64,000 nucleotides of DNA from Methylomarinovum tepidoasis (GTDB taxonomy: Bacteria; Pseudomonadota; Gammaproteobacteria; Methylococcales; Methylothermaceae), in the NCBI RefSeq assembly GCF_030294985.1, contig NZ_AP024718.1, positions 1,317,001-1,381,000 of the forward strand, given 5' to 3'. Numbering within the stretch: position 1 is the stretch's first letter; each line of letters opens with the position of its first letter. The translations under genes and the position numbers were made by a program. Below, piece after piece: positions 23,424 through 42,908 of this stretch. The notes beneath the pieces are model-generated. The model saw nothing but the letters and a program-made list of their open reading frames with translations. It did not search any database and was not told the DNA's origin.

Positions 23424-23434
23424 GATTTGTTTCC

Positions 23435-24967: not shown

Positions 24968-24978
24968 GGCATGGCTCC

Positions 24979-27624
24979 TCAGTGACGCTGCTGATACAGA
25001 TGGATGAACAGGGGAATGACGAAGCGGCTGCCGAAGCGCTCGATGGGCTCTCCCAGGACTTTCCAAAGCTCGGCCATCCGGCGGCGGCGTTCCTGGTCAC
25101 TCAACCCGCGCATCCGCTCCAGCATCCTGAAGGTGCGGTAGCTGAACCAGGATTTCCAGATGGCGTTCTCGGGCCGCTCGTGCACGTTTCCAGCCAGGTG
25201 AGCCAGTTCCTGGAGGCGGTACAGATAGGCGGTGCTGAGGTCGAGATCGCAGTGTTCGATCCCTTCCTTGACCTGCCACAGCTGTTCGAACTCGTCCCAG
25301 GAGACGCTCTGGTGGAACAGGGTGACGGCGTTCTTTCCCGGAAGGGCCTTGGCGTCTTCCAGGGCGTCTTCGGCCGTCTTTCCCAGTTGCCGCACCGGCT
25401 GGCCGGGTTTGGTCATGGACAGCCCGGCGGAAAAATGCAGCCCGGGATTTTTCGCCACGTAACGATGGAAGCGGTCGCGCATGTCGCGGGCCAGGCGGAT
25501 GGTGCTGTACCACGGGCCGATGAGGAAAAAGTCGTCGCCGCCGGCGAATACGGTGTAGGTGTCTCGATAGTGTTCCCGGCAGTACCAGGGCAGCCATACG
25601 GCGAAAAAGGCGTTCATCTGCCGCGACAGGCTGGCCCATTTGGCAAAGCTCGGCTGTTCCAGGCCCTTCTGGAAGATCAGTCCCAGATTGTCCACGTCCC
25701 CCTTGAGCACCGTCAGCGCCTCGGTGCCGACCCAGCCGTCGCCTTCCGGGCGCAGGTCGTCGCGGGCCAGGTGCTCAAAGGTCTTGGGGGCCCTGGGGTC
25801 CCAGTCTCCAGGGAGCTCGATGTCCCGGTAGCGGTCACGGTCGTACTGGTTCAAATCGCCGAGCAGGGGGACATAGGCGTTGATGAAACGGCGGGCGTAA
25901 CCGGAAAACAGCGGTGTCCGTTTGCCCTGCGGCAGGCTGAAATCCCAGGCCCGCCGCAGCGCCCCCTCCCTCACCAGGGGGCCGAACCTGCCGCTGGCCT
26001 CCTCGGGACCGGTGAAGCTGATGTGGTAACCGAACAAGTCGAGCCGCAGGGTATGGTGATCGATGGCGCGGGTCGTCACCAGCAGGCGGTCGTGGTGGGC
26101 CAGCCATTTGCCGGTATCGATCTGGTCGGCGGCCAGGGGGCTGATGTACCGGTTTTCGGCGCCTTCCAGCTTTTCGCTGGCCGGCGAGCGGCCGTCGATG
26201 GCGCAGACGCCCTTTTCGTTGTCGAAGGCATCAAGAAAACCCTTGAACACCGCTTCCGGCGCCTGCGGGGCGCACAGGTTCAGACGCTGGGACTTTTTGT
26301 CCTCCAGGCGATCGAACAGGCGCTTTAAGAGCCTTGCGAACGGGCGCTCCGTCTCGCCGCGGCGGTGGAGGAAATCGTTGCAGCAGGCCGCCTGCCAGGC
26401 GATGCCGATGCCGGAGGCGGCGTAGGTCCGCTCCAGGAACCAGCGGTCGAATTGCCGCTGGATGGCCGCCAGCCGCCGGCGCACCGCCTCGGTGTTGGGG
26501 GCGACGATGAGGAATTTGCCGGCGGCGTTTATCACCTGACTGGTGGGCGGCAGGCCCAATTCTTCGAGAATCCTTAAGGCGGCGCATTCGCACAGCAGGG
26601 AAACGTAGAAGGAACGCCCCCGCAGCAATTTGGCCGCCTGGCGCTGGGTTTCGCCGCCGCTGGTGAAGATGAAGTCCTGGATGCCGTAGAAATCGCCGAG
26701 CACCAGCAGGAACTTGTTCTCGTCCCAGTCGCTGCGGGTGCGCATCGCTTCCGCTGCGGCCTTCGGGTCGTCGCCGCGGTCGTCGTGCCAGCGCCACAGC
26801 GCCGTGGCCAGGGCCGAGGCGGTGCGGGAATGGTCGTAGAGGGACACCTCCGGGCGCACCTTGCCGGCGGTGGCGGCGGGAACGGCATGGGCGAAGGCGG
26901 CCCACAGGGAATCGAAATGGTCCAGCCACAGGGCCCAGTCGTCTCGGTGGCTGGCCGGAATCTCCTTCAGGGCCCGGCGGAAGCCGTCCCACAGGCGGCG
27001 GTATTCCGCCTGGGCGGCCTGGCGGTCGTTGCCTTCGCAGGCGTCCGCCGGCTGGGGGAACAGGGCCGCGACGCTCAGGGGCTCGAGGGGATAACGCCAG
27101 CGGAAATCGGCCCGGTTCCGAGGGGCCTCGCCGTCCAGGCGGATCTGCTCGAACAGGGTCAGAAGGCGGGCGGTGTAGTGGTCGCGGCCGGTGCTGGCGC
27201 CTTCCTCGGCCTGGTTGTAACGGTCGAATTCCTCCCGTTCGAAACCGGAGGCCACCCGGTCGGCGGTGGCGACGATCCATTGCAGGAAGGTTTGCGGTTT
27301 GTGATGCATCGCCGCGGCGTTGATGAGGGAATCGTCCACGTTCCTTTCCCCCCAGGCGGCGAAGGGAGAGACGTCGCGCCCTTTGAGCGGTGGCAGATCG
27401 TCCTCGATCAAATCCAGGGCGATGGCCGTATAGGCGGCGTGGACGTGGGACCAGCGCCCGTTCCAGCCCGGGCAGTACTGCTGCTTGTTGCGATCGGCTA
27501 CCGAGTTTCCCTCGGCGTCTTTGGCCTCGGCCTCCCCGATCCGCGCCCGCTCGGCCAGTTTGCCCAGGTCGTGGACGTAGGCGGCAAAGGCCACCCGGCA
27601 GCTTGGTTCCAGCTTGGTTTTCAT
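24979..27624 (-). CDS. csm1: Type III-A Cas10/Csm1, HD nuclease and cyclic oligoadenylate synthase
   Basis: An 881-residue large subunit. The HD nuclease motif is AYVHDLGKLAE (H18, D19), with HHKPQTF as a further metal site. Two GGDEF-like palm domains follow; the second has the active VFAGGDDFFLIGPW (GGDD at about 695-698) and its partner LKGDVDNLGLIF. Cas10 with intact HD and GGDD is expected to cut ssDNA and to make cyclic oligoadenylates when target RNA binds. It heads the leftward csm operon, divergent from a toxin-antitoxin pair, so its promoter lies in 27625-27738. Confidence 0.96.
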   Translation of the reverse strand: MKTKLEPSCRVAFAAYVHDLGKLAERARIGEAEAKDAEGNSVADRNKQQYCPGWNGRWSHVHAAYTAIALDLIEDDLPPLKGRDVSPFAAWGERNVDDSLINAAAMHHKPQTFLQWIVATADRVASGFEREEFDRYNQAEEGASTGRDHYTARLLTLFEQIRLDGEAPRNRADFRWRYPLEPLSVAALFPQPADACEGNDRQAAQAEYRRLWDGFRRALKEIPASHRDDWALWLDHFDSLWAAFAHAVPAATAGKVRPEVSLYDHSRTASALATALWRWHDDRGDDPKAAAEAMRTRSDWDENKFLLVLGDFYGIQDFIFTSGGETQRQAAKLLRGRSFYVSLLCECAALRILEELGLPPTSQVINAAGKFLIVAPNTEAVRRRLAAIQRQFDRWFLERTYAASGIGIAWQAACCNDFLHRRGETERPFARLLKRLFDRLEDKKSQRLNLCAPQAPEAVFKGFLDAFDNEKGVCAIDGRSPASEKLEGAENRYISPLAADQIDTGKWLAHHDRLLVTTRAIDHHTLRLDLFGYHISFTGPEEASGRFGPLVREGALRRAWDFSLPQGKRTPLFSGYARRFINAYVPLLGDLNQYDRDRYRDIELPGDWDPRAPKTFEHLARDDLRPEGDGWVGTEALTVLKGDVDNLGLIFQKGLEQPSFAKWASLSRQMNAFFAVWLPWYCREHYRDTYTVFAGGDDFFLIGPWYSTIRLARDMRDRFHRYVAKNPGLHFSAGLSMTKPGQPVRQLGKTAEDALEDAKALPGKNAVTLFHQSVSWDEFEQLWQVKEGIEHCDLDLSTAYLYRLQELAHLAGNVHERPENAIWKSWFSYRTFRMLERMRGLSDQERRRRMAELWKVLGEPIERFGSRFVIPLFIHLYQQRH

Positions 27625-28465: not shown

Positions 28466-28792
28466 TTACGCCGTTCCTTGGATTTTGCGAATCTCATATT
28501 CCTCCAGCCTGGCCCCATATTTGTCCAGCTCCTCGGCGCTCAGCTCCCGCCCCCGGGCCTCGGGGGGAATCTCCAATGACAAGTGTAGATACCTCGCCCC
28601 GCGGCGGCACACTTGGGCGGCCAGATGGACCGGCAGGGTGCCGATGACGGTGTCGCCCGGCTGGATCTCTTCCACATCCAGATGATCCACCTGGCGGTCG
28701 ATCCGAAGCCCCTGCCGCCGGGCCCATTCCACCGCCCCCGGATGGCGGGAGACGAAAAAGGTGGTGCGGCAGTTTGGCTGGGTTTCGCGCAT
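28466..28792 (-). CDS. csx16: CRISPR-associated protein Csx16
   Basis: A 108-residue protein with the Csx16 (TIGR02620) pattern: TTFFVSRHPGAVEWARRQG, VDHLDVEEIQPGDTVIGTLP, VHLAAQVCRRGARYLHLSLE and ELSAEELDKYGARLEEY. Csx16 occurs only with type III systems; recent work places it among cyclic-oligoadenylate-degrading ring nucleases, which I recall but cannot check here. It lies between the PIN toxin (convergent) and the CARF gene on the same strand 31 bp upstream, so csx16 and the CARF gene are probably cotranscribed. Confidence 0.85.
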   Translation of the reverse strand: MRETQPNCRTTFFVSRHPGAVEWARRQGLRIDRQVDHLDVEEIQPGDTVIGTLPVHLAAQVCRRGARYLHLSLEIPPEARGRELSAEELDKYGARLEEYEIRKIQGTA

Positions 28793-28823: not shown

Positions 28824-30008
28824 TCAATGGTGGCCTGCCGGCGGCGGCCTGTCAGCGGTGGCAGGCTTGCCGTCCAGGGTCTGGTAACAGATGGCCTCAG
28901 GCGGCAGCCTGAGGCGGTAACGGCGGGGGCGGGCGCCGCCGTCGTGGATGAGATAGGGCCCGGCCGCCGGTCCCAGGGCCTTTCTCAAGGCCCGGTGCAG
29001 CTTGGCCTTGCGCTGGGAAAAGTAGTCCCCGTCCATGCCGTTTGCCAGCGCCCTTTCGGTGCTTTCCCGGTCTTCCAGCTCGCCCCCGCGGATCAGCCGG
29101 TATTCCGCCAGGAAAAGCCGGCCCCATTCGGGATCGGGCACGCCCTTGGGCGGCGCCTGCAGCGGGGATTCTTCGGCCAGGGCGCGGCGGGCGAAAACGC
29201 TCAGCAATGCCAGGTCCGCCGGGCGCAGAGGAACGATCCGGCCGGCAGCCTGAATGCGTTGGCCGGCCAGGTCGATGACCAGCCGGGGCGGCGCCAGCGC
29301 CCTGCGGGCGGCCGTCACCGCCTCGCAAAAGCGGACTTCCCCGTGCAGCAGCCGCTCATCGAAGCCGTGGCGCAGGCTGACGAAGGGAATCTCCGCCAGG
29401 GTCACCTCGGCCTGCTTGCAGTCCAGGGGGATCTGCCGCTTGTCGAGGGAATGGACGATGCGCTGGCAGGGGGTGGGATAGAAGAACTGGGGGTGGGACT
29501 CGAACGGCGGCGACACCAGCACGTGGCTGAGCCGGTCCTGGGGACGGCCGAACAGGGATAGGGCGTAACCGGCGTAATAGCCCAGGGTCTTGCGGCCGCC
29601 GGCGATGGAGACGTGGAGGGCGGCATCGGGATCGGCGCTCAGTTCCCTGACCGTGTTGGCGAGAAAATCGGCGGCGCTTTCGTTGTCGGCGGGGGTGCGG
29701 ATGTCCTCCAGGGGCCGGCCGTCGGGGCCGGGAATGACGCGGATCCGGCCGCCGTCGAAGGCGATGTCCGGCAGGTCGTAGTCCCGCCGCAGGCGGTGGA
29801 ACCAGCCGGGCTCCTCGGAGAGCAGGTCGAGGCGGACGTACTCGGCCCCGGCGCTGGTGGTGACGACCACGATTTCCGTGGGCACGAAGGCAGGCCGGCG
29901 GCGGACCGCCAGGGCATACAGGGTCTCGGTGACCACCTGGGGGGACAGGCCCGTGACCGCCAGCAGAATGCGGCGGGGATAGGTTTCGGGACGGTTCGGG
30001 TCGGGCAA
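28824..30008 (-). CDS. NE0113-family CARF protein (TIGR02584) with winged-helix-like C-terminus
   Basis: A 394-residue protein. The CARF N-terminal half has RRILLAVTGLSPQVVTETL, VVTTSAGAEYVRLDLL and the ligand-loop HVSIAGGRKTLGYYAGYAL. The C-terminal part (IDLAGQRIQAAGRIVPLRPA, then KAKLHRALRKALGP and PRRYRLRLPP) looks like an OmpR-type winged helix. This suggests a cyclic-nucleotide-controlled regulator rather than an RNase. The TTG at 30008 is chosen because GGAGG lies 6 bases upstream; the open frame extends to a TTG at 30098 without a ribosome site. It is divergent from the dual-OB/DUF488 operon. Confidence 0.8.
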   Translation of the reverse strand: MPDPNRPETYPRRILLAVTGLSPQVVTETLYALAVRRRPAFVPTEIVVVTTSAGAEYVRLDLLSEEPGWFHRLRRDYDLPDIAFDGGRIRVIPGPDGRPLEDIRTPADNESAADFLANTVRELSADPDAALHVSIAGGRKTLGYYAGYALSLFGRPQDRLSHVLVSPPFESHPQFFYPTPCQRIVHSLDKRQIPLDCKQAEVTLAEIPFVSLRHGFDERLLHGEVRFCEAVTAARRALAPPRLVIDLAGQRIQAAGRIVPLRPADLALLSVFARRALAEESPLQAPPKGVPDPEWGRLFLAEYRLIRGGELEDRESTERALANGMDGDYFSQRKAKLHRALRKALGPAAGPYLIHDGGARPRRYRLRLPPEAICYQTLDGKPATADRPPPAGHH

Positions 30009-30150
30009 GGCGGGCCTCCGGCTGAAATCGCTTCGCCGGCTAGCGTAAAGGATGCGGGGCCGGTCTGACAACGCCGGCAAGCCTGCCGCTTCTGACAAAT
30101 GGCGCCCGCTTTTCCAAAATGCCCTCCGTTCTCACTGCAACGGGGGCGTT

Positions 30151-30774
30151 ATGTTGCGCGTTTCGATCGTCTGTCTGGCCAATTCCTACAAGCACCAAGG
30201 TTCCTGCATCGCCGGGAAAATCTGGGACGGAAGCCGGCCCGGCCAGTGGGTCCGTCCGGTCGCTGACGCCGGCGGCGGGGCGCTGCCACGGCGGGCGCTT
30301 CAGCCCGGCGCCGTCGTCGAAATGCCTTTGGCCGGCCGGGTTCCTCTTGGGCATCAACGGGAAAATTACCTGCTCGGAGAAGGCCATTGGCGTATGTTAG
30401 GCCACCTGCCCTGGTCCGGGTTGACGGATTTTCTCGATCCTCCGGCGCCTTTGTGGCAGTCCGGCCATCACAGCAGCTGTGGCCTGAATGACCGGGTGCC
30501 TGCCGGAACCGCCTCCGAGTCCCTGCGTCTGATCGCCGTGGACCGGCTGGATCTGACCGTCACCGACGAAGGCAAACTGCGCGGCCAATTCCGCTACCAG
30601 GGCATGGACTACGATCTTTGCGTCACGGACCGCCGCTGGCGGTGCTGCCATGTCCGCTATCTGTGCGGGCGGCCTTTGCAGAACGTAATCCTCTGCATCA
30701 GTTTGGGGGAGGACTTCAAGGGTTATTGTTATAAACTCATCGCTGCCATCCTATGGGAACGACGTTACCGATGA
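30151..30774 (+). CDS. Dual OB-fold (DuOB) domain protein
   Basis: A 207-residue protein starting MLRVSIVCLANSYKHQGSCI with GKIWDGSRPGQWVRPV next, the pattern of the dual-OB family often found with DUF488 genes. HQRENYLLGEGHW and a C-terminal CVTDRRW...LCISLGEDFKGYCYKLIAAI complete it. Nucleic-acid binding is inferred from the OB folds. The ATG at 30151 is preferred over in-frame codons from 30052 because these fall in the divergent promoter. Its stop overlaps the DUF488 start (ATGA). It opens the rightward operon that continues into the cas adaptation genes. Confidence 0.72.
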   Translation: MLRVSIVCLANSYKHQGSCIAGKIWDGSRPGQWVRPVADAGGGALPRRALQPGAVVEMPLAGRVPLGHQRENYLLGEGHWRMLGHLPWSGLTDFLDPPAPLWQSGHHSSCGLNDRVPAGTASESLRLIAVDRLDLTVTDEGKLRGQFRYQGMDYDLCVTDRRWRCCHVRYLCGRPLQNVILCISLGEDFKGYCYKLIAAILWERRYR

Positions 30775-31361
30775 TTTACACGATCGGCCACTCCAGCCAC
30801 GAACCGGACGCCCTGTTGACGTTGTTGCGCCGCCATGGCGTCACTGCGGTCGCCGATGTGCGCTCCCAGCCCTACAGCCGGCGCTTCCCCCATTACAGCC
30901 GGAAGGCGTTGAAGGGCTGGCTGCAGGAACAGGGCATCGCCTACGTCTTTCTGGGCAGGGAACTGGGCGGCCGTAGCGCTGATCCGGACCATTACGACGA
31001 AACCGGCCGGGTGGATTACGGGAAACTCGCCGCCAGTGAGCCTTTCCGTAGCGGCATCGACCGCCTGCGCCAGGGGATGGCGGCCTACCGGATCGCCCTG
31101 CTGTGCGCCGAACGCGACCCGCTGGACTGCCACCGCGGCCTGCTGATCGCCCCCCGGCTGCAGGAGGCGGGCGTCGAGGTGGGGCACATTCTGGCCGACG
31201 GCGGGCTGGAACCGCATCGGCAGACGGAAGAGCGGCTGCTGTCCCTTTTGGGTCTGGCCGACGATCTGTTCGGGGAGCCGCGCGCGCAGCGGCTCATGCT
31301 CGCCTACCGCCGCCGGGCGGAGGAAGCCGCCTACCGGAAACCCACAGGAGGCCGCCCGTGA
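30771..31361 (+). CDS. DUF488 family protein (first copy)
   Basis: A 196-residue protein with the DUF488 marks MIYTIGHSSHEPDALLTLLR, VADVRSQPYSRRFPHYS, YVFLGRELGGR and LLCAERDPLDCHRGLLIAPRL. The conserved Cys/Glu/Arg/Asp-Cys-His cluster suggests an enzyme, and the family is often placed among predicted nucleic-acid-processing or defence proteins, without an established reaction. The start at 30771 overlaps the dual-OB stop. It is followed by a second, diverged DUF488 gene. Confidence 0.88.
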   Translation: MIYTIGHSSHEPDALLTLLRRHGVTAVADVRSQPYSRRFPHYSRKALKGWLQEQGIAYVFLGRELGGRSADPDHYDETGRVDYGKLAASEPFRSGIDRLRQGMAAYRIALLCAERDPLDCHRGLLIAPRLQEAGVEVGHILADGGLEPHRQTEERLLSLLGLADDLFGEPRAQRLMLAYRRRAEEAAYRKPTGGRP

Positions 31362-31792
31362 AAGTGTTCACCATCGGTTTCACCCAAAAAAGCGCCGAGG
31401 CATTCTTCGGCCGGTTGCAGCAGGCCGGCGTCAAGCGCCTGCTCGACATCCGCCTCAATCCCGGCTCCCAGCTGGCCGGTTTCGCCAAGCAGCGCGATCT
31501 GCCGTTCTTTCTCCGCGCCCTGGCCGGCATCGACTACCGCCATCTGCCGGAGCTGGCCCCGACCCGCGCCATTCTGGACGCCTACAAGAAGCACGGCGGC
31601 GCTTGGGCCGAGTATGAGCGCCGCTTTCTGGCCCTGCTGCGGGAGCGGCAGGTGGAGTCGCGTTTCGCCCCGGCGCTGTTCGAATCGGCCTGCCTGCTCT
31701 GCAGCGAGCCCACCCCGCAGCACTGCCACCGGCGGCTGGTGGCGGAATACCTGCAACGGCACTGGTCCGGCCTGGAAATCGTTCACCTTTGA
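31358..31792 (+). CDS. DUF488 family protein (second, shorter copy)
   Basis: A 144-residue paralogue: VFTIGFTQKSAEAFFGRLQ, LLDIRLNPGSQLAGFAKQRD and ACLLCSEPTPQHCHRRLVAEYL. It keeps the C-x2-(S/A)E-x4-(H/D)CHR cluster. It begins with GTG at 31358 overlapping the first DUF488 stop. The two belong to different DUF488 subgroups, which suggests they act together rather than being a recent tandem duplication. Confidence 0.86.
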   Translation: MKVFTIGFTQKSAEAFFGRLQQAGVKRLLDIRLNPGSQLAGFAKQRDLPFFLRALAGIDYRHLPELAPTRAILDAYKKHGGAWAEYERRFLALLRERQVESRFAPALFESACLLCSEPTPQHCHRRLVAEYLQRHWSGLEIVHL

Positions 31793-31825: not shown

Positions 31826-32347
31826 ATGTGGTCCGTTTTCGCCGATTTCGTCGTGACCTGGCTCGATCCTGTCGGCGTGGTGCTGGGGCTGATCGCCACC
31901 CTGCCGGTGTTCTGGACCTGGTACGAGGTCGTCTTCGGCGAACGCCGCCGCCGGAAGCGCTGGTTCGACGAGGTGCGCCGTCAGCCGGGCCGGCGCCCGG
32001 CGATCCTGGTGCTGGATCTGCTGCCGGGAAAGGAGATCCGCACCCAGGTGGAGCACTTTCGCGCCCACAGCGACGCCCTCAAGGACATCCCCGAAGAGCG
32101 GGTCTTCGTCATCAGCCGCGAAAAGGCGCTGACGCCGGCGGAGGTTCCCGCCCTGCAGGACGAAATACGCTGCACCGCCAGGCGCATCCTGGCCAGCGGG
32201 GCCGACCGGGTCCACTATTTCCACGCCGGTCCCGCCTTCGCCGCCGCCCTGGTGGGAGCGGAATTCGCCAACGCCGCGCCGTTGTTGCTCTATCATTACC
32301 AGGGCGGCGCCTACCGAAACTTCGGTCCCCTGAGGATGATGCCGTGA
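31826..32347 (+). CDS. Membrane-anchored SAVED-like protein (TM-SAVED candidate)
   Basis: A 173-residue protein. One hydrophobic segment (DPVGVVLGLIATLPVFWTWY, about 14-33) is followed by a very basic stretch (GERRRRKRW). The rest is a Rossmann-like domain: PAILVLDLLPGKEI, EERVFVISREKALTP and, near the end, VHYFHAGPAFAAALVGAEFA with LLLYHYQGGAYRNF. That last pattern resembles SAVED domains, the CARF relatives that sense cyclic nucleotides in CBASS and type III systems. The call is by eye. It lies 33 bp after the DUF488 pair and overlaps the cas2-like start (GTGA). By analogy with Cam1 it could be a membrane effector. Confidence 0.6.
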   Translation: MWSVFADFVVTWLDPVGVVLGLIATLPVFWTWYEVVFGERRRRKRWFDEVRRQPGRRPAILVLDLLPGKEIRTQVEHFRAHSDALKDIPEERVFVISREKALTPAEVPALQDEIRCTARRILASGADRVHYFHAGPAFAAALVGAEFANAAPLLLYHYQGGAYRNFGPLRMMP

Positions 32348-32631
32348 AAATCCACCGCCGTCTGCATCTGGCCGCCTACGACGTCAGCGACGCCAAACGC
32401 CTGCGCGCCGCGCTCCATATCACCCGCCGTTACGCCACCGGGGGCCAGAAGTCGGTGCACGAATGCTGGGTGACGGCGGCGGAGAAAGGCCATCTGATCG
32501 CCGATCTGAGCCAGGTGCTCGACGAGGCCCGCGACCGTCTTCTGATCCTGCGGCTGGATCCCCGCCAGACGGTGACCGCCCTGGGCCGGGCCGTGCCGCC
32601 CGCCGATCCCGAGTGGTTCTACATCGGCTGA
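32344..32631 (+). CDS. cas2: Cas2 family protein (first of two)
   Basis: A 95-residue protein with a ferredoxin-like Cas2 pattern: LHLAAYDVSDAKRLRAALHI carries the conserved Asp after the first strand, followed by YATGGQKSVHECWV and a second strand LLILRLDP. It is the diverged type of Cas2 seen in some proteobacterial type III loci. It starts at GTG 32344 inside the TM-SAVED stop, and lies 14 bp before cas6. A canonical cas2 follows later (35321). Confidence 0.8.
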   Translation: MKIHRRLHLAAYDVSDAKRLRAALHITRRYATGGQKSVHECWVTAAEKGHLIADLSQVLDEARDRLLILRLDPRQTVTALGRAVPPADPEWFYIG

Positions 32632-32645
32632 CGACGGAGGCCGCC

Positions 32646-33596
32646 ATGCAATCGCCCCGCATCCCGCTGGTCCGGTACCGCTTCCACTGCCGCGCCCTCG
32701 ACCCGATCCGCCTGCCGCACTATGCCGGTTCCACCTGGCGCGGAGCCTTCGGCCACGCCCTCAAGCGCACCGTCTGCGTCACCCGGATGCGCGACTGCCG
32801 TCAATGCCTGCTGTGGCGCCAGTGCGCCTACAGCGACATCTTCGAGACCCCGCCGCCGGAAGACACCCCGCTGCTGGCCGATTATCCCGCCGCCCCGCAT
32901 CCCTTCATCATCCACCCGGAGGCGACCGGTGGCGGCAGTTACGCGCCGGGCCAGCCGTTCCAGGTGGACCTGACCCTGATCGGCCGCGCCAACGCCCAGT
33001 TGCCCTATATCGTCCATGCCTGGCGGGTGATGGGGCGGCAGGGCGTGGGAAAGACGCGCAGCCGCTTCAAACTGGAAGCGGTGGCGCAGGCCGATGATGC
33101 CGGCTGGCGGGCGATCCACCGCGAGGGAGAACCGCTCACCCCCCGGCCGCCCGCCGTCCCCGTCCTGCCGCCGCCACCGGCGGAGCGCTGCCGGATGGTG
33201 CTGGAAACCCCGCTGCGCATCAAACACCAGGGCCGGCTGATGGGCGCCGCCGGCTTCTCCTTCCGCGGCCTGATCGCCAGCCTGTTGCGGCGGCTGTCGC
33301 TGTTGCAGCATTTCCACGGCGACGGGCCGCTCGAGGCCGACTTCCGCGCCCTGGTGGCGCGGGCCGGCGCGGTCCGCCCCCTCGAATGCGATCTGCGCTG
33401 GTACGACTGGACCCGCTATTCCGCCCGCCAGCGCACCAGGATGCAGATGGGCGGGCTGCTGGGGTGGATCGATTTCCGCGCCGAAGATCTGGAACCTTTC
33501 TGGCCCTGGCTCGCCGCCGGCCAATGGCTCCACGCCGGCAAAGGGGCCAGCATGGGGCTGGGGCGCTACCGCCTGGACGGCAAGCCTGCCGCCTGA
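32646..33596 (+). CDS. cas6: CRISPR RNA-processing endoribonuclease Cas6
   Basis: A 316-residue RAMP protein of the PF10040-type Cas6 group. LPHYAGSTWRGAFGHALKR is the N-terminal glycine/aromatic motif, a CxxC-type cluster (MRDCRQCLLWRQCAYSDIF) follows, and the C-terminal glycine-rich loop is GKGASMGLGRYRL. It cuts the pre-crRNA within the repeats. The start MQSPRIPLVRYRF at 32646 follows GGAGGCC; the longer open frame starts in the cas2-like gene and is rejected. It should process both arrays, since the repeat is the same. Confidence 0.9.
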   Translation: MQSPRIPLVRYRFHCRALDPIRLPHYAGSTWRGAFGHALKRTVCVTRMRDCRQCLLWRQCAYSDIFETPPPEDTPLLADYPAAPHPFIIHPEATGGGSYAPGQPFQVDLTLIGRANAQLPYIVHAWRVMGRQGVGKTRSRFKLEAVAQADDAGWRAIHREGEPLTPRPPAVPVLPPPPAERCRMVLETPLRIKHQGRLMGAAGFSFRGLIASLLRRLSLLQHFHGDGPLEADFRALVARAGAVRPLECDLRWYDWTRYSARQRTRMQMGGLLGWIDFRAEDLEPFWPWLAAGQWLHAGKGASMGLGRYRLDGKPAA

Positions 33597-33654: not shown

Positions 33655-34569
33655 ATGGCCACCGTGTACGTGGATCACAGCGGCACCCGCATCCGCCTGC
33701 AAAGCGGCAGTCTGGTGCTGGAATCCCCCGCCGGCCGCCGCACCGTACCGGCCCGCCTGCTGCGCCGCCTGGTCATCACCGCCAAAAGCGAGCTCGACAG
33801 CGGCACCCTGAACCGGCTGGCGGAAGCCGGCATCGCCGTGGTCCTGCTCGATCCCCACCGCTGCCGCCGCCGCGCCCTGGTGCTGGGCGGTCACCAGCCC
33901 GACGCCGGGCTGCGCCTGGCGCAGTACCGCGCCGCTCAGGACACCGCCTTCCGGCTCGAAATCGCCCGCGCCCTGGTGCGGGCCAAACTGCAGCGCCAGC
34001 TGCGCTGGCTGGCCTCGTCGTCCTGCCCCTCCTGCGATGCCGCCCGCCGGCGCTTGCAAGGGATCCTGACGCGCCTGGACGGGATGGCCGACCCGGCCGG
34101 CCTGCGCGGTCTGGAAGGCAGCGCGGGACGGGCGTTCTTCGCCGCCTACCGGCGCCTGTTTCCGGACCACCTGGGCTTCGACGGCCGGCGCCGCCGCCCG
34201 CCGCCCGATCCGGTCAACGCCTGCCTGTCCCTGGGGTATGCCTTGCTGCACAGCCGCGCCGTCCAGGCCGCATGGAGCGCCGGCCTGGACCCGATGATCG
34301 GCTTCTACCACGAACCGGCCTGGGGGCGCGAATCCCTCGCCTGCGACCTGATCGAACCCTGGCGCCCCTGCATCGAACGGTGGGTGGCCGGGTGGTTCGG
34401 GCAGCGCTGGCTGGAAGCTGGTCATTTCTCCCGCCAGGGGGACAGCGTCCGCCTCGGCAAGGCCGGCCGCCAGCGCTTCTTCGGCGCTTTCGAAAAAGGC
34501 ATGCCGCCGGTCGAGCGCAGCCTGCGCCGTCAAATCCGCCACCTGATCCAGCGTCTGGAGAGGCTGTGA
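33655..34569 (+). CDS. cas1: CRISPR integrase Cas1
   Basis: A 304-residue Cas1. The N-terminal beta domain (VYVDHSGTRIRLQSGSLVLE) is followed by the helical catalytic domain with all three metal ligands: Glu in GLEGSAGRAFFAAY, His in PMIGFYHEPAWGRES, and Glu in CDLIEPWRPCIERW. It integrates new spacers with Cas2. Its stop overlaps the start of a second Cas1-like gene (TGATG). Confidence 0.95.
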   Translation: MATVYVDHSGTRIRLQSGSLVLESPAGRRTVPARLLRRLVITAKSELDSGTLNRLAEAGIAVVLLDPHRCRRRALVLGGHQPDAGLRLAQYRAAQDTAFRLEIARALVRAKLQRQLRWLASSSCPSCDAARRRLQGILTRLDGMADPAGLRGLEGSAGRAFFAAYRRLFPDHLGFDGRRRRPPPDPVNACLSLGYALLHSRAVQAAWSAGLDPMIGFYHEPAWGRESLACDLIEPWRPCIERWVAGWFGQRWLEAGHFSRQGDSVRLGKAGRQRFFGAFEKGMPPVERSLRRQIRHLIQRLERL

Positions 34570-35324
34570 TGCTGCAACCCGTCTATCTCAACAGTCCCGG
34601 CGTCGTCCGGGTCACCCTCGAAGGCCCGGCCCTGCGCATTCACAGCCGCCACGAAGCGGACCGCTTCCTGCCGCTCGCCCGCCTGGCGCGCATCGTCAGC
34701 CGCGGCCGGATTCAATGGAGCACCGCCGCCCTGCTGCAATGCCTCCAGACCGGCGTGCCCGTCACCTTCCTCGACTCGGAGGGGCGGGCCGTCGGCCTCT
34801 GCATCAGCGCCTGGCCCCACTACAGCCCTCTGAACGAATTGCTCGAAGGGGTCGTCGCCAGCCCCGAAGGCCCGGCGCGGCTGGTGGACTGGTTCCGCAG
34901 CCAGAGCCGCTGCCGCCTGCTGAAGCTGCTGCGTCGCCACCGGCTCGATCCCCCGGACCTGCGCATCCGCACCGTGCGCCGGTATCTGCGTCAAGGGTGG
35001 CGGCAGCGCCACGACACCCCCGAACCGGTCACGCCGCTCAAGCCGCTGTTGCTGGCCCAGCTGGTCGAGGTGCTCACCAGCTACCGTATCGACCCGTCCC
35101 TGCTGGAAGCCGGCCCCGGTTGGGCCGGGCTGGCCGCCTATCTGGGCGGCGTTCTGGAATGGGAATTGTGGCGCCTGGCCCTGAACGGGCGGCTGGCGGA
35201 CGCCGACACGCCCCGTCGCCGGGTGGCCGCCTATCAGCGCCACGCCGACCTCCTCGACACCCGAATGCGTCAACTCGTCGGCCAGCTGTGGCGCTGGCTG
35301 GAACAGGAGGGCCCGATTTCATGA
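34569..35324 (+). CDS. Cas1-like protein without catalytic residues
   Basis: A 251-residue protein. Its first 80 residues (PVYLNSPGVVRVTLEGPALR ... LLQCLQTGVPVTFLDSEGRA) track the Cas1 beta domain closely. The rest is helical (LAQLVEVLTSYRIDPSLLEA, GWAGLAAYLGGVLEWELWRL), but I find no counterpart of the GxEG, FYHEP and DLxEPxRP metal-binding motifs. It is therefore probably a structural partner rather than an integrase. It is coupled to cas1 (TGATG) and to cas2 (ATGA), so its product is made in step with both. Confidence 0.75.
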   Translation: MLQPVYLNSPGVVRVTLEGPALRIHSRHEADRFLPLARLARIVSRGRIQWSTAALLQCLQTGVPVTFLDSEGRAVGLCISAWPHYSPLNELLEGVVASPEGPARLVDWFRSQSRCRLLKLLRRHRLDPPDLRIRTVRRYLRQGWRQRHDTPEPVTPLKPLLLAQLVEVLTSYRIDPSLLEAGPGWAGLAAYLGGVLEWELWRLALNGRLADADTPRRRVAAYQRHADLLDTRMRQLVGQLWRWLEQEGPIS

Positions 35325-35647
35325 GCCTGCACGCCAAGCACCCCCATCTGGTTTGCTACGATATCGCCGATCCCCGCCGCCTGCAGCGGGTCCACCGCTA
35401 TCTGAAGAAATTGGGGCTGCCGTTGCAGTATTCGGTGTTCCTGCTTTTCCTCGACGCCCCGGGACGCCAGCGGCTCGCCGCCGCCCTGCTGGAAATGATC
35501 GATCCCCGCCACGACGACGTGCGCATCTATCCGCTGCCCCGCCGTCCCGATTGGCAATGGTGGGGCAAGCCTCTGTGGCCGGACGGCATCCTGCTGCCCG
35601 GCCTGGACTTGCCAACACCGCTGAATGGGGCTAAATTTGACCAATGA
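35321..35647 (+). CDS. cas2: CRISPR-associated Cas2 (canonical)
   Basis: A 108-residue protein: HLVCYDIADPRRLQRVHRYL has the conserved Asp and is followed by KLGLPLQYSVFLLFLDA and VRIYPLPRRPDW, the usual Cas2 fold order. Cas2 dimers bridge Cas1 dimers in the integration complex. The ATG at 35321 overlaps the Cas1-like stop. It ends the rightward operon 36 bp before the leader of array 2. Confidence 0.92.
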   Translation: MSLHAKHPHLVCYDIADPRRLQRVHRYLKKLGLPLQYSVFLLFLDAPGRQRLAAALLEMIDPRHDDVRIYPLPRRPDWQWWGKPLWPDGILLPGLDLPTPLNGAKFDQ

Positions 35648-35771: not shown

Positions 35772-36017
35772 GTCTAGAAAGCGACCTGTTTGAAAAGGGA
35801 TTAAGACTTCAGTTCTTCGGCAAACGTTATCAGCTCATTCGTCTAGAAAGCGACCTGTTTGAAAAGGGATTAAGACCCAGCACCAGCAAGTTCCTCAAGC
35901 GCCCCCGGGTGTCTAGAAAGCGACCTGTTTGAAAAGGGATTAAGACTCAAACCCGAAAAAGGTTCCGATGCGGCGACCATAGTCTAGAAAGCGACCTGTT
36001 TGAAAAGGGATTAAGAC
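35772..36017 (+). CRISPR. CRISPR array 2 (4 repeats, 3 spacers)
   Basis: Four identical 36-bp repeats at 35772-35807, 35841-35876, 35911-35946 and 35982-36017, starting GTCTAGAAAGCG and ending GGGATTAAGAC. Spacers are 33, 34 and 35 bp. After the last repeat come 23 bases without a further repeat and then the left flank of the TnpB element, so the distal end may have been cut. If Cas6 leaves an 8-nt handle as in other type III systems, it would be ATTAAGAC. Confidence 0.98.
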
Positions 36018-36040: not shown

Positions 36041-37712
36041 GCAGCCAATGCGCTATCGCCAGGCTGATCGTGTGCCTCATCGTCCTGCGCCGGGTTGACC
36101 GAATAGCGCCGCGCAAGCCCCTGCCGGAAGGCTAGGGATAAGCGGCGCCCTGTAGCTGGTTGTATACTATCGCCATGTCCAAGCGCAGCCCATCGCCCTC
36201 GTTCGTTCTGGAACTGCCCTTCGGGTCGATAGGGCGGCAGAGCGTGTTTTGATGGCCCGCTTCGAGGCGGCAAGGCAGCTGTACAACGCCTGCCTGGGGG
36301 AGGCCCTGCGGCGGTTGGACCGGATGCGGTCCTCCAGGGATTGGCAGGCGGCCCAGCAGATACCCAGGGAGCAGAAGCAGGCAAGGCGGGCGGCGTTCGA
36401 CGGGCTGCAACAGCGTTTCGGTTTCAGCGCCCATGCCATCGAGGCGTATGGCACGGCCTGCAAGAATGCCTGCTGGATTGGCGATCATCTCGACGCTCAC
36501 GTCACCCAGAAGACAGCCCTCCGGGCCTTCAACGCGGTGGAGCAGTACCGCTTAGGCAAGCGGGGCCGGCCCCGGTTCAAGGGCCGGATCAAGGCGCTGC
36601 AATCGGTCGAAGGCAAGAGCAACGCGGCAGGCATCCGCTGGCGCGGCGACCGGGTGGAATGGAAGGGAGTGGTGCTGCGCCCCCTGTTCGACCGTAAGGA
36701 CAAGCATGGTGTGCAAACCTTCGCCCTGCAATGCCGGGTCAAGTACGTCCGGCTGGTGTGGCGCCAGCTTCGGGGGCGGCGGCGCTGGTACGTCCAGCTG
36801 GTGCTGGAAGGCCGGCCCAAGTGGAAGGACAAGCACCCCATCGGCGAAGGCGACGTGGGCCTGGACATCGGCCCCTCCACCATCGCCGCGGTGGGGGAAG
36901 AAGAAGCCCTGCTGGAACCCTTCTGCCCCTCGGTCGAATATCTGGGCAGGAAGATCCGGCGGATTCAACGGGCCATGGACCGCTCCCGGCGGGCCACCAA
37001 CCCCGACAACTACCACCCGGATGGGACGGTCAAGAAAGGCCCCCAGCGCTGGGTCCATTCCCACGGCTATCTGAGGCTCCAGGCCGAGCTTCGGGAATTG
37101 CAGCGCCGTATGGCAGAAGCCCGCAAGACCGAACACGGCCGGCTGGCCAATAGGCTCATGGCTATGGGACGGGTCTTCAAGACCGAAGCCGTCTCCATCC
37201 GGGCCTGGCAAAAGCGCTTCGGGCGCAGTATCCGCGACCGGGCGCCGTCCCTGTTTCTGAACCGGCTGAACCGCAAGGCTGAAAGCGCCGGCGGGAGGCT
37301 GGAAACCTTTCCGACCCGCACCACCCGGTTGAGCCAGGTGTGCCACCACTGCGGGTCGGTCGAGAAAAAGCCCCTCTCCCAACGCATCCACGCCTGCGGG
37401 TGTGGTGTTGTCATGCAACGCGACCTCTACAGCGCGTTTCTGGCCCGCTGCGTTGAAGGAGAGGCCCTCCACGTGGGGCTGGCGCGCGAGCGCTGGCCGG
37501 GTGCGGAACCGCTCCTTCGGGCGGCGTGGAGGCGAGCAACCTGCGATGGCAAGGGCAAGGTTCCTGCCACCTTCGGGGCTTTTCGGAGGCAGAGCGGGTC
37601 GTCCGGAGAAGGCGGGACAGCCAAACCCAAGGCTTTCATGCCCGGAAGGGATGGAAGAGAGGCGGCGGCGGTTTCCGCCAGAACCCCCTGCCTTTAGGCG
37701 TGGGGAGGTTCA
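36041..37712 (+). mobile_element. IS200/IS605-type (IS1341-like) TnpB element, approximate ends
   Basis: It contains only a tnpB-type gene, no tnpA. TTCAC at 36036-36040 would be a typical target/TAM next to the left end. At the right, CCCCTGCCTTTAGGCGTGGGG (37685-37705) forms the hairpin expected at the right end and in the omega-RNA scaffold, followed by AGGTTCA. Both ends are estimated by eye. The left 130 bp hold a TATACT-like -10 box and the ribosome region, but no other gene. The element abuts the distal end of CRISPR array 2. Confidence 0.6.
36175..37697 (+). pseudogene. tnpB: TnpB-family RNA-guided nuclease gene with a 5' frameshift
   Basis: The downstream frame (from 36249) encodes most of a TnpB: LMARFEAARQLYNACLGEAL, the RuvC-I motif GDVGLDIGPSTIAAVG, the zinc ribbon CHHCGS...CGCG and the final RuvC aspartate in MQRDLYSAFL. 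The expected start is ATG 36175 (MSKRSPSPSFVLELP), but this frame hits a TGA at 36250. One extra C in the CCC run near 36214-36217 would give FVLELPLRVDRAAERVLMARF, a standard TnpB N-terminus. So a single-base deletion, slippage site or sequence error. The C-terminal tail after the zinc ribbon (about 70 residues) overlaps the presumed omega-RNA. Confidence 0.8.
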
Positions 37713-37722
37713 GGCAGAACAT

Positions 37723-39435
37723 CTATTCCCACCCCAACCGCTCGGCTAGGCCGGAGGCGCGCTCGACCTGCCTTTTTAATCCTGTCTCCAGCGCGTTTTT
37801 CGGCCCGGCCAGGATGCAGCGTTTTCGGGCCCGGGTGATTCCCGTGTAGATCAGTTCCCGGGTCAGCACCGGCGTTTCCGGCGGCGGCAGGAGCAGCAGC
37901 ACCGCATCGAACTCCGAGCCCTGGGCGCGGTGGACGGTCATGGCCCAGGCCTTTTGCCAGTGGGGGAGCTGGCGCAGAGGAATGCGGCGGATTTCATCGC
38001 CGCTGGGGAAGCAGGCGCGGAGATGGCCTTCCTCTTGCCAGAGAATGCCGATGTCGCCGTTGAACAGTCCGGTTTCGTAATCGTTGCGGGTGATGAGGAT
38101 CGGCAAGCCGTGATAGGGGCGGGCGGGATCGGCGATCTTCCCCCACCGGGAGAGGCCGGTCTCGAACCGGGTCGTCAGTCCCTCCTCCCCCCAGGGACCT
38201 GCGTGCACGGCGGTCAGGACCCGGGATTTGGCCAGCGCCGCCAGGGCTTCTCCCACCGTGGACGCCTCGAGCACCGGGCGGTAATGGCGGTCCATCCATT
38301 TGAGCACGTGCCGGTCCGGCGCTTCATCGGCCTGCGGCCAGAAATCCACCTCTTTCTCCTCTTTCAGGCAGGCTTTCGCGGCGGCGGTTTTGCCTTCCCG
38401 CACCGCCTGCGCCAGGCGCCCGATTCCCTGGTCGCTGGAAAAGCGGTGGCTGCGGCGCAGCTCCACGATGGCGTCGTGAATGCCCCCGAACAGCTCGGGA
38501 TCGTCGCCCGGATCGGCCTCCAGCCGTTCGAGCCAGGCGGCCATCTCCTGGCTGTAGGCCAGACGCCGGCCCCGGCCGGTGATGTCTCCCAGCACGCTGC
38601 CGGCTTCCACCGAGGCCAGCTGATGACGGTCGCCCAGCAGGATCAGCCGGGATTGCGGCGGCAGCGCGGCCATCAGGCGGGCCATCAGCTCCTGGTCCAC
38701 CATCGAGGCCTCATCGACGATCAGGGCGTCGAGGGGGAGGGGATGGTCCGGCCCGTGGGGATCGGCGCGGCCGATGCCCAGCAGCCGGTGCAGGGTGGCC
38801 GCCCGCTCCGGAATCCCGGCCCCGAATCCCGGCGGCAGGCCCGCCCTGCCGGCCGCCAGCGACTCGGCCAGGCGGCCGGCGGCCTTGCCCGTGGGGGCCG
38901 CCAGTCCCAGGCGCAGCCCCGGGCGCAGATGTTGCCACAGGGCGATCAGGCGCAGCACCGTGGTGGTCTTGCCGGTGCCGGGACCGCCGGTGATGACCGC
39001 AAAACGGCGGGCGCAGGCCACGGCCACGGCGGTCTTCTGCTCGCCGCTTTCGGGAAACAGCTTTTTGAGGGTGGGACGGATCTTGTCAGTCTCGGCCAGA
39101 GAATCGAATTCCAGCCGTGCGAGAATGCCCTCGGCGATGGTTTTCTCCGCCTCGTGGTGGCGGGCCAGATACAGGCGGTGGCCGTCGAGGACCAGGGGTT
39201 TTCCCGGCCCGATGTGGGGATGGGCCAGCAGTTGCTCACGCCAGGCATTTATATCCGGACAAAGGGGGCCGTCCTCCCCCAAAGGACGCCCGGCCCAGGC
39301 GTTGAGATCCAGACAGGTTTCCCCGGCCTGACAGCGTTCCACCAGCCAGGCCACGGTGCGTTCCACCAGGCCTTCGGCCCCGAGGAAACGGGGAAAATGG
39401 CGGGCCAGGGGAGAAAGATCGGTCATGCCGCTCAT
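37723..39435 (-). CDS. recD: Exodeoxyribonuclease V alpha subunit RecD
   Basis: A 570-residue SF1 helicase subunit. Walker A is VITGGPGTGKTTTVLRLIA, Walker B LIVDEASMVDQELM, with LLGDRHQLASVEAGSVLGDI and the C-terminal AMTVHRAQGSEFDAV and YTGITRARKRC. RecD gives RecBCD its fast 5'-3' motor and regulates the nuclease. The gene follows recB with a 4-bp overlap and ends close to the TnpB element. An ATG at 39423 (MTDLSPLARHF) is an alternative start. Confidence 0.95.
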   Translation of the reverse strand: MSGMTDLSPLARHFPRFLGAEGLVERTVAWLVERCQAGETCLDLNAWAGRPLGEDGPLCPDINAWREQLLAHPHIGPGKPLVLDGHRLYLARHHEAEKTIAEGILARLEFDSLAETDKIRPTLKKLFPESGEQKTAVAVACARRFAVITGGPGTGKTTTVLRLIALWQHLRPGLRLGLAAPTGKAAGRLAESLAAGRAGLPPGFGAGIPERAATLHRLLGIGRADPHGPDHPLPLDALIVDEASMVDQELMARLMAALPPQSRLILLGDRHQLASVEAGSVLGDITGRGRRLAYSQEMAAWLERLEADPGDDPELFGGIHDAIVELRRSHRFSSDQGIGRLAQAVREGKTAAAKACLKEEKEVDFWPQADEAPDRHVLKWMDRHYRPVLEASTVGEALAALAKSRVLTAVHAGPWGEEGLTTRFETGLSRWGKIADPARPYHGLPILITRNDYETGLFNGDIGILWQEEGHLRACFPSGDEIRRIPLRQLPHWQKAWAMTVHRAQGSEFDAVLLLLPPPETPVLTRELIYTGITRARKRCILAGPKNALETGLKRQVERASGLAERLGWE

Positions 39436-42400
39436 CGTGGAAACACCTCGGTATCGAGCCGTTCGATCAGGGCGCGGGGCGGGCGGGTGGAAAAGATGCC
39501 GTAGCGGCGCTTTCCAGGGCGCATCCCGCGCAGGAAGAGGTAGAACACCCCGCCAAAGTGAGTGGCGTAATCGTAGTCCCTCAGGCGCACCCTCAGATAG
39601 CGGTGCAGGGCCAGGGTGTAGAGGGCGTACTGGAGATCGTAACGGCGCTGGCGGATCTCCTCGCCCATCCGCTTCGGGCCGTAGTCCCTCAGGCGGGCGC
39701 CGAGAAAATCGCTTTTGAAGTCGGCGATCCAGTATCGGCCTTCGTGTTCGAACACCAGGTCGATGACACCGGTGACCAGACCTTCGAACGCCTCCAGGCT
39801 CAGGGGCGGGCGCTCGCCTTTGGGTTCCAGTTCATTAAGACAGGCTTCCAGGGTTTTCGGATCGACCGGCCCGGTGGCGAAATCGAACGACAGCTCCCGC
39901 AGCTGCCGCTCCAGGGGGATGCCGGCCAGGGTCAGGCCGGGTTGCAGCGGCGTTTGGGCGACCTTCTCGAGCCAGTCCAGCAGGCCGGGCTCCATGTCTT
40001 CAGGATCGAGGCCGTGACGGGGGGCCAGGCGTTGGACCAGCGCCGGGATCTGCGCCGCCAGGGAGCCGGCGAAATCGAGGTGCTCCAGCAGTTCGTGGAG
40101 AAAGGCCCCGACCAGGGGACCTGCCGGATAGGCCAGGGCCGGATCGGTGACCGCCTCGTCGCGCGGTACCGACGGCGGCCGCGGCAGCCCTTCGCTCATG
40201 GCGGTGTAGGACTGGACCTGCCAGATGCGTTCCAGCCGGCGCTGGAACCGGGCCGGCTCCAGATCCTGCGGCGGCGGACGCCGCTGCCGGGTTGCCGCGG
40301 CGTCCCCTTCAGGCTCCGGCAGGGGCAGAACCCGGATGTGCTCGGATACGGCCAGCTTCTCCAGCCAGGCCGGATCGACCTTGCCGGGCTTGATCTCCCG
40401 GTCGCTGCCCGACAGCAGCCGGGCCAGGGCGGTTCTGCCGGCATGGCCTTCCCGGGTGCCGGCCGGGCCGAAGGCCAGGTAGAGGGCGCTTTCGGCGCGG
40501 GTGAGGGCGACGTACAGCAGGCGGATGTCCTCGGCAAGCCGTTCGGCCTCGGCCCGCCGCATGGCCTCGCTGTCCTTGTCCGGCTCGAAGGTGGCCCGCC
40601 GGATTCCTTTCTCGTCGTGCCACAATACCAGTCCCTCGGCCTTGCGGGGGCGGCAGGAAAACAGGAAGGGAACGAAAACGATGGGATACTGCAGGCCCTT
40701 GGCGGCATGGATGGTGGCGATGCGCACCAGTTTTTCGTCGTCTTCCAGGCGCAGCTCGTTGGCCTCCCCGTGCCGTTCCGCCCGGGTCCGGCGCACCCAG
40801 GTCAGACAGGCGTCGATGCCGGCATGGGTGCGGGCCGCCTGATGGATGAGCTCTCCCAGATGGATGAGATTGGTCAGCCGCCGGGCCGGATCGCCGCTGC
40901 GGTTGAGGCGCCCGGGCAGCCCGATGCGGCCGAGCAGATGCCAGAACGCCGGCAGAAAGCCCTGTTCCAGCCAGCGGCTGCGGGTCGTCTCCAGGGTTTC
41001 CACCCATTCGGCCCAGCCGCGCTCGTCGGCCAGGCGCCGGCCGATTTCCTCCAGGGTCAGCCCCAGCAGGGGCGAGGCCAGGGCCCGGCGGGCCAGCCGA
41101 CGGTCCTCGGGGGCGGCGACCGCCTCGAGCAGTTGCACCAGGCCCTCGGCTTCCTCGCTCTCCCAAACGCTGTCGCGGGAGATGAGCACCGCCGGAATAC
41201 CCAGGGCGGCCAGCGCCCGTTTTATCCGGGCCCCTTCGCGGGAAGTCGGCACCAGTACCGCCACGTCGCCGGCCTGGACAGGATCGTCTCCCAGCTTGGT
41301 GGTTTTGGCTTCCCCCTCGGCCAGGAGGGCGGCGATTTCAGCGGCGACCGCCCGGGCCACCCTGTCCCGGGCCTCGTCCAGATTCAGCGGCTTGGGCTTT
41401 TCGGTCTCATCCCAGGGCAGTTGCCAGACGGTGACCGGCGGCTGGCCATTGCGTATCAGATGCCGGTGTCGTTGCGGCGCCGGCTCTGCCGCAATGAAGG
41501 GGATATTCTCGTCCAGGAAGGGATTTTCCGTGATTTGGAAGAAGCGGTTGACCGCCTCGATCAGGCCCGGGGTAGAGCGCCAGTTGGTGACCAGCGTCCA
41601 GCGGTTTTCCTTCGGGATCTCGGCCTTGGCGCGGAGATAGATGAACAGATCGGCATCGCGGAAGCTGTAGATGGCCTGCTTGGGATCGCCGATGAGCGTC
41701 AGGCAGATGTCGTCCCGATCCCGGTAGATCCGGCGGAAGATCCGGTACTGGATCGGATCGGTATCCTGGAACTCGTCCACCATGGCCACCGGGAACCGCT
41801 CGGCCAGGTGGCCGGCCAGCTGCGGCGCGTCGGCCAGGGCCTGGTCGAGGCCGGTCAGCAGGTCGTCGAAGGTGCGAAGGCCCTGGCGGCGCTTGGCCTC
41901 GGCGGTTTGCTCGCGGACGTATTGCAGGGCGTCGTGGAAACAGCTGTGGGCCAGATCGGCCTGGATTTCCTGATAGGTTTTCCAGAAGATGCCGCAGGCG
42001 TCGAGGAAGGGATCCTGAGGCGCCGGCCCTGCATTTTTCTTCAAGCTGCTCTTTAGTTTCTGCGGCGTCAGCAGTTCCAGCTTGTCCGGGACGCTGTCGA
42101 TGCCGGGATTGCGGAAAAAGGCTTCGAGCTGTTCGAATGCCTGTTCCAAGGCGGCCTGTTTGTAGCCGCCATTGCGCTTGAGAGCCGGACAATCGCTGAG
42201 CTGGCGGCAAATCTTCCCTTTAACCCCGGGCCATTGCCCCGCCAACGTGGCAAGTTGCGCCCTCAGTTTGGGGAGGGTCTTCCGGATTTGCGCCAGGGGC
42301 TGTGGCGCCGGGTCCAGTTGTGGCGGTTCGGGACGGTCCAGGGCCTTCATGGTCTGGCAGAAGCGCTCGAAACCGCCGACGGCCCGTTCGATCAGGGCGG

Positions 42401-42908
42401 CGGTTTCCACCTCGAGGGGGTAGAGGGTGCGCCGCCACCAGTCGGCCAGGGCCTGCTGGCGCAGGGCTTCGTCCTCGCCAATTTCCATGGCGAAGAGCTG
42501 GCCGCTGAGGAAGGCGAATTCCTCCAGCGCCCGCTGGCAAAAGCCGTGGATGGTGTAGATGGCCGCCTCGTCCATGCTCTGCAGGGCCAGGGTCAGGCGG
42601 CGGATGGTCAGATCCCGGTCTTCGAGCCCGGCGGCGAAACGGGACAGGGCGGCATCGTCGTTCTCCTCGCCGTCGCGCAGCCAGGCCAGCGCCTGGTACA
42701 GACGCAGGCGGATGCGCCCGCGCAGTTCCTCGGTGGCGGCGTTGGTGAAGGTCACCACCAGGATGTCGCGGGGCTGGCGGCCGGCGGCGATGTGACGCAG
42801 ATAGAGGTTGGCGAGGGTGTAGGTCTTGCCGGTGCCGGCGCTGGCCTCGATCAGGGTGGTGCCGGCCAGGGGCAGCTCGAACAGGGTGTCGGTGGTCAGC
42901 GGTTTCAT
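39432..42908 (-). CDS. recB: Exodeoxyribonuclease V beta subunit RecB
   Basis: A 1158-residue helicase-nuclease. Walker A is LIEASAGTGKTYTLANLYLRH near residue 19, Walker B AMVDEFQDTDPIQYRIF, and HAAKGLQYPIVFVPF is a later helicase motif. The C-terminal nuclease domain shows GVIDLVFEHEGRYWIADFKS, with the D and DxK residues of the active site. The start MKPLTTDTLFEL at 42908 overlaps the recC stop; a longer open frame upstream lies inside recC and is rejected. RecBCD processes DNA ends for repair and degrades linear phage DNA. Confidence 0.95.
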   Translation of the reverse strand: MKPLTTDTLFELPLAGTTLIEASAGTGKTYTLANLYLRHIAAGRQPRDILVVTFTNAATEELRGRIRLRLYQALAWLRDGEENDDAALSRFAAGLEDRDLTIRRLTLALQSMDEAAIYTIHGFCQRALEEFAFLSGQLFAMEIGEDEALRQQALADWWRRTLYPLEVETAALIERAVGGFERFCQTMKALDRPEPPQLDPAPQPLAQIRKTLPKLRAQLATLAGQWPGVKGKICRQLSDCPALKRNGGYKQAALEQAFEQLEAFFRNPGIDSVPDKLELLTPQKLKSSLKKNAGPAPQDPFLDACGIFWKTYQEIQADLAHSCFHDALQYVREQTAEAKRRQGLRTFDDLLTGLDQALADAPQLAGHLAERFPVAMVDEFQDTDPIQYRIFRRIYRDRDDICLTLIGDPKQAIYSFRDADLFIYLRAKAEIPKENRWTLVTNWRSTPGLIEAVNRFFQITENPFLDENIPFIAAEPAPQRHRHLIRNGQPPVTVWQLPWDETEKPKPLNLDEARDRVARAVAAEIAALLAEGEAKTTKLGDDPVQAGDVAVLVPTSREGARIKRALAALGIPAVLISRDSVWESEEAEGLVQLLEAVAAPEDRRLARRALASPLLGLTLEEIGRRLADERGWAEWVETLETTRSRWLEQGFLPAFWHLLGRIGLPGRLNRSGDPARRLTNLIHLGELIHQAARTHAGIDACLTWVRRTRAERHGEANELRLEDDEKLVRIATIHAAKGLQYPIVFVPFLFSCRPRKAEGLVLWHDEKGIRRATFEPDKDSEAMRRAEAERLAEDIRLLYVALTRAESALYLAFGPAGTREGHAGRTALARLLSGSDREIKPGKVDPAWLEKLAVSEHIRVLPLPEPEGDAAATRQRRPPPQDLEPARFQRRLERIWQVQSYTAMSEGLPRPPSVPRDEAVTDPALAYPAGPLVGAFLHELLEHLDFAGSLAAQIPALVQRLAPRHGLDPEDMEPGLLDWLEKVAQTPLQPGLTLAGIPLERQLRELSFDFATGPVDPKTLEACLNELEPKGERPPLSLEAFEGLVTGVIDLVFEHEGRYWIADFKSDFLGARLRDYGPKRMGEEIRQRRYDLQYALYTLALHRYLRVRLRDYDYATHFGGVFYLFLRGMRPGKRRYGIFSTRPPRALIERLDTEVFPR

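Follow-up and report, generated by a model that had tools for sequence, protein, structure and literature searches.

Organization of the type III-A locus

The window, by which we mean the whole 64,000-nt stretch of Methylomarinovum tepidoasis DNA analyzed here, contains a CRISPR locus that was assigned to type III-A by the presence of cas10/csm1 and csm2-csm5, with the csm5 match lying under its curated cut-off (Table 1). In this locus cas6 is inserted between the upstream cas2 (cas2a) and cas1, whereas cas2a and cas1 are adjacent in most relatives. The cas1 gene is the sole catalytic cas1 in the genome; the active-site residues of its product, E154, H219, D231, and E234, are 96-100% conserved among its relatives, and the metal site that the first-pass annotation had read in this protein is present. 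The closest named relatives place the host in Methylococcales, near Methylohalobius.

The same annotation had described the following ORF, here called cas1x, as a dead Cas1 paralogue whose start and stop overlap cas1 and cas2. The ORF and both overlaps were confirmed: the ATG of cas1x overlaps the cas1 stop codon (TGATG, 34567-34571), and at the other end the cas1x stop codon, TGA, runs into the ATG of the downstream cas2 (cas2b) at 35321. The coupling to cas1 and cas2 was thus correctly recognized, but the second cas2 gene, cas2a, which is a possible further source of asymmetry, had been overlooked.

Table 1. Features of the type III-A locus and its CRISPR array in the window
Feature	Position	Strand	Remarks
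csm5	within 20149-22065	-	strand as csm1; match below its curated cut-off
csm4	21801-22724	-	strand as csm1
csm3	23435-24151	-	strand as csm1
csm2	about 24533-24985	-	strand as csm1
csm1/cas10 (type III-A)	24979-27624	-	
csx16	28466-28792	-	
CARF protein, NE0113/Csm6 family	28824-30098	-	
Membrane-anchored CARF/SAVED protein	31826-32347	+	PADLOC 'CARF, 2 TMs'; overlaps cas2a
cas2a (upstream cas2)	32344-32631	+	Pfam E 4.6e-11; product ends ...WFYIG
cas6	32646-33596	+	Pfam E 1.4e-17; PADLOC E 5e-115
cas1 (catalytic)	33655-34569	+	E154, H219, D231, E234 intact
cas1x (P0001)	34569-35324	+	Cas1 paralogue of full length, catalytically dead; 251 aa
cas2b (downstream cas2)	35321-35647	+	Pfam E 2e-15
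CRISPR array	35772-36017	+	four 36-nt repeats ending AAGGGATTAAGAC; spacers of 33, 34, and 35 nt

Several other genes lie within or beside the locus. A VapC toxin gene and an apparent antitoxin gene are found within the csm operon, between csm3 and csm4 (22801-23500), and a TnpB-like (IS605-type) gene lies directly 3' of the CRISPR array (36249-37697). Two DUF488-domain genes (30753-31792) are located upstream of the CARF/SAVED gene; both adjoin the adaptation genes in the relative L039. Large exonuclease/helicase genes on the minus strand (37723-46099) resemble recD, recB, and recC by eye; RecBCD produces prespacer fragments in E. coli.

Fold and active site of Cas1x

The Pfam Cas_Cas1 match in P0001, the Cas1x protein of the window, was limited to residues 6-79 (E 1.2e-7), and a PDB sequence search returned weak Cas1 matches only. 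However, full-length profile-profile alignment (hhalign) of the Cas1x family with Cas1 gave Prob 99.3 and E 4e-20. The AlphaFold2 model of P0001, computed from an alignment with 54 relatives, had a pLDDT of 94.8 and a pTM of 0.91, and its best PDB match in VIA-align was the Cas1 chain 4xtk_A (Z 21.1, rmsd 3.2, 244 aligned, residues 2-249); the top 50 matches were Cas1 or casposase chains, all of the Cas1 family. The model combines the N-terminal beta domain with the alpha-helical C-terminal domain. Thus, the likeness to Cas1 that had first been seen in the N-terminal domain holds there, but it extends through the C-terminal half as well. Because the model has a complete Cas1 fold, the weak C-terminal similarity reflects divergence; as modelled, this half is a diverged Cas1 and not a replaced domain.

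P0001 carries Ile, Gly, and Tyr at the positions aligned with the active-site Glu, His, and Asp, the first (Glu) position being loosely aligned, and so lacks the metal-binding residues of a catalytic Cas1. The loss of the metal motifs in this protein was accordingly upheld, and the alignment revealed no intact metal site in it. Most relatives outside a Nitrospirota-type group also have no aligned His, and Glu is missing as far as it can be aligned; the Asp column is kept in many relatives. In the Nitrospirota-type group, His is present in 7 and Asp in all of the 11 members, and hhalign placed them on H219 and D231 with the Glu offset by a few residues. An intact E-H-D site in some of these proteins, suggested by the alignment, was dropped, the Glu being offset in hhalign. 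Across the aligned relatives, the pattern resembles that of a once active paralogue that has decayed step by step.

The Cas1x family is already catalogued. PADLOC holds the profile PDLC01185, 'Cas1, diverged variant, second in the loci', which represents the same family: it matched P0001 (E 6.7e-20) and 51 of the 54 aligned Cas1x members (best E 2.8e-121), and P0001 also lies beside a true cas1. We take this entry to stem from the published neighbourhood survey of Shmakov et al. 2018. It consists of a profile and a label; function, partner, and module are absent from it. The open-access literature that we searched contained no functional description of Cas1x and no account of the four-gene module described below, an absence that is not proof, and a term search of a 2025 classification found no mention of the family. 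One apparent literature match to a 'diverged Cas1' proved to read 'diverged Cas10'.

Conservation of a four-gene module

A module of four genes, cas2a-cas1-cas1x-cas2b, is present in 92 non-redundant loci, which belong to Pseudomonadota, Nitrospirota, Acidobacteriota, Planctomycetota, and further groups. A search of Methylococcales with the PADLOC model gave matches in 61 of 301 genomes, the few weakest of which were ordinary Cas1, and the regions fetched afterwards showed this gene order almost throughout. Scanning contigs with the Cas1 alignment recovered the same module in Thiothrix, Ectothiorhodospira, Thiocapsa, Microbulbifer, Nitrospirota, Candidatus Kuenenia, Acidobacteriota, and others; P0001 alone as a query of genome contigs found no relative, and none was found in the plasmid search.

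The junctions are tight (median -3 nt from cas1 to cas1x and 0 nt from cas1x to cas2b). With the exception of L090 (8921-11292), a rearranged locus that keeps all four genes and has cas2a between cas1 and cas1x, the complete loci all have cas2a upstream and cas2b downstream. No intact locus with cas1x and a single cas2 was present among the loci examined; this combination was confined to contigs that break off close to the module and to L088, which has a truncated cas1. The two cas2 types formed separate clades in a tree of only 97 columns, in which many forks are unresolved. The inter-locus distances of Cas1, Cas1x, Cas2a, and Cas2b were correlated in all six pairs (r 0.85-0.91, compared with at most 0.22 in 200 shuffles); such correlations indicate co-inheritance rather than contact, as operon linkage alone yields them.

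The CRISPR arrays found near the modules have as many as 114 repeats. Whether or not the module includes cas1x, the nearby repeats have in common, across phyla, a 36-37 nt form that ends near AAGGGATTAAGAC (L040-L174, e.g. L085:11905-19898), as if repeat and integrase had evolved together. Spacer lengths were ordinary (33-35 nt) and did not separate loci with cas1x from those without.

Repeated loss of cas1x

In the Cas1 tree, the two-cas2 loci fell into a single clade with support 100, and ordinary cas1-cas2 loci lay outside it. Not every locus of this clade retains cas1x: loci without it are nested within the clade in four or more places. In all, 15 loci with two cas2 genes and 12 with a plain cas1-cas2 pair lack cas1x while their cas1 is intact. 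Among Methylococcales, all 47 Cas1 loci scoring at least 423 bits (46 genomes) adjoined a cas1x match when compared by hand, and the 12 loci at 338-386 bits were plain cas1-cas2 pairs nested within the module clade. The single cas2 of these pairs (L187-L198) scores between cas2a and cas2b, and a reversion to the two-gene form is possible. The arrangement cas2-cas1-cas2 without cas1x was found in Pasteurellaceae, Zoogloea, and Accumulibacter loci. The type III-A cas2-cas1-cas2 locus of Gallibacterium anatis, known from a gene list only (PMC3554606), likewise has two cas2 genes around cas1 but no cas1x, and the 2013 genome paper is silent on the arrangement (PMC3554606).

Overall, about five lineages, or more, have lost cas1x and retained cas1. 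The first-pass annotation had held that frequent loss from otherwise intact loci would tell against a Cas1-Cas1' heterocomplex. The evidence supports such a complex in part: a dead paralogue that is conserved and co-inherited with cas1 and cas2 agrees with it, and loss of the kind that would tell against it was observed to some extent. The module can evidently drop cas1x alone or together with one cas2. Since cas1x was lost where cas1 stays, integration itself does not require it, and its repeated loss argues that it improves or restricts integration.

Possible signs of contact with Cas2

The third residue from the C-terminal end of Cas2a is aromatic in 95 of the 96 cas1x-bearing loci, compared with 3 of the 16 that lack the gene, a signal that rests largely on one old cas1x-less clade and one small lineage. 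The three exceptions (L128, L139, and L152) are placed next to cas1x-bearing relatives, as expected if cas1x was lost recently. The structure of a type II complex shows the Cas1 dimer complexed with Cas2 at the C-terminal strand of the latter (PMC6620040). An in-frame cas1x-cas2b fusion occurs in L119 (8936-9964), from an uncultured Pseudomonadales MAG; the Met of cas2b is retained, with no clear ribosome-binding site before it, and in a single MAG the fusion could be an assembly slip. The fusion and the Cas2a tail are two hints of contact.

A putative heteromeric integrase

Known Cas1-Cas2 integrases consist of a Cas2 dimer flanked by two Cas1 dimers. In each Cas1 dimer of the E. coli complex, only one subunit (Cas1a) catalyzes; its partner, Cas1b, makes the contact with Cas2 on which formation of the complex depends (PMC10011333). 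We consider it rather probable that Cas1x is a dedicated non-catalytic subunit of a heteromeric Cas1-Cas1x-Cas2a-Cas2b integrase, in the place that Cas1b takes in E. coli. The catalytic and Cas2-contacting roles of Cas1 would then be divided between two genes, with intact Cas1 in the catalytic slot and Cas1x in the Cas2-contacting slot, where a dead Cas1 could sit without impairing catalysis, and the central dimer would be Cas2a-Cas2b. As cas1x in complete loci always occurs with two different cas2 genes, the integrase probably has four different parts rather than two. The canonical type I-E complex of E. coli resembles the proposed one in the Cas1 fold and in pairing, within each dimer, a catalytic Cas1 with a non-catalytic one that contacts Cas2 (PMC10011333); there, however, one gene product plays both Cas1 roles around a Cas2 homodimer, whereas here there are two cas1 and two cas2 genes.

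The comparisons document the four genes with their linkage, conservation, and co-inheritance, and the Cas1x fold with its lost active site; for the Cas1-Cas1x-Cas2a-Cas2b complex we infer heterodimerization, the assignment of slots, stoichiometry, and polarity. A complex of this kind would lack the usual two-fold symmetry and could tell its two ends apart, be they the leader and spacer sides or the prespacer end that joins first. A C2-symmetric integrase still has to insert spacers in one orientation (PMC12259127), a problem that built-in asymmetry would solve. The same question of orientation has been addressed for Pseudomonas aeruginosa Cas1-Cas2/3, where it is solved with the PAM and Cas3 domains and not with distinct subunits (PMC12259127). 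We suggest more tentatively that a dead Cas1 is locked in the non-catalytic slot and that the two-fold symmetry is broken by the presence of two Cas2 types, in which case spacer orientation may be built into a four-subunit integrase; it is plausible that Cas1x sets the polarity of insertion.

Alternative explanations

Cas1x might instead be a separate DNA-binding specificity factor, for the leader, the repeat, or prespacer ends, that acts outside the Cas1 slots beside an ordinary Cas1 homotetramer. The family evolves fast, above all in its C-terminal half (mean identity within the family 26%, versus 46% for Cas1), its median pI is 9.2, and loss of cas1x is tolerated, as expected of an accessory factor. 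However, the whole Cas1 fold is kept, the best conserved part is the N-terminal beta domain, by which Cas1 dimerizes, and cas1x co-occurs strictly with two Cas2 types, which together make this explanation unlikely.

We regard as improbable an arrangement in which a Cas2a-Cas2b heterodimer carries a Cas1-Cas1 dimer next to Cas2a and has Cas1x only in the dimer next to Cas2b, with arms that differ in chemistry. Gene order pairs cas1x with cas2b, and the two are fused in L119, but the covarying tail belongs to Cas2a. It is more doubtful still, indeed very improbable, that Cas1x inhibits or regulates the system and keeps spacer uptake low as a dominant-negative Cas1. Dead paralogues might be expected often to behave so, and cas1x can disappear while arrays stay; this role would leave the strict tie to two Cas2 types unexplained, however, and the arrays near modules are long.

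In the 30 pairs with at least 70% identity, the dN/dS of cas1x was 0.01-0.27 (typically about 0.15), somewhat above that of cas1; the median of 0.48 over all 116 pairs was set aside, as it includes very distant, partly saturated pairs. Purifying selection acts on cas1x, and we reject a decaying pseudogene or annotation artefact as almost certainly wrong in spite of the lost active site and fast divergence, because dN/dS in close pairs is well below 1 and also in view of open frames with tight junctions in about 90 loci, their persistence across phyla, and a confidently predicted compact fold.

If Cas1x is the non-catalytic subunit of a heteromeric integrase, the module would offer an approach to a general difficulty: the two-fold symmetric Cas1-Cas2 has to insert spacers at a single place as well as in a single orientation, and identical subunits make this hard to dissect, as a mutation affects every copy. 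Here the roles seem to be split into genes, so that one could mutate or remove the catalytic Cas1, the Cas1 that contacts Cas2, or either Cas2 on its own, and the loci that have lost cas1x, or cas1x and a cas2, provide natural comparisons. The four-part build could explain how the integrase distinguishes its two ends.
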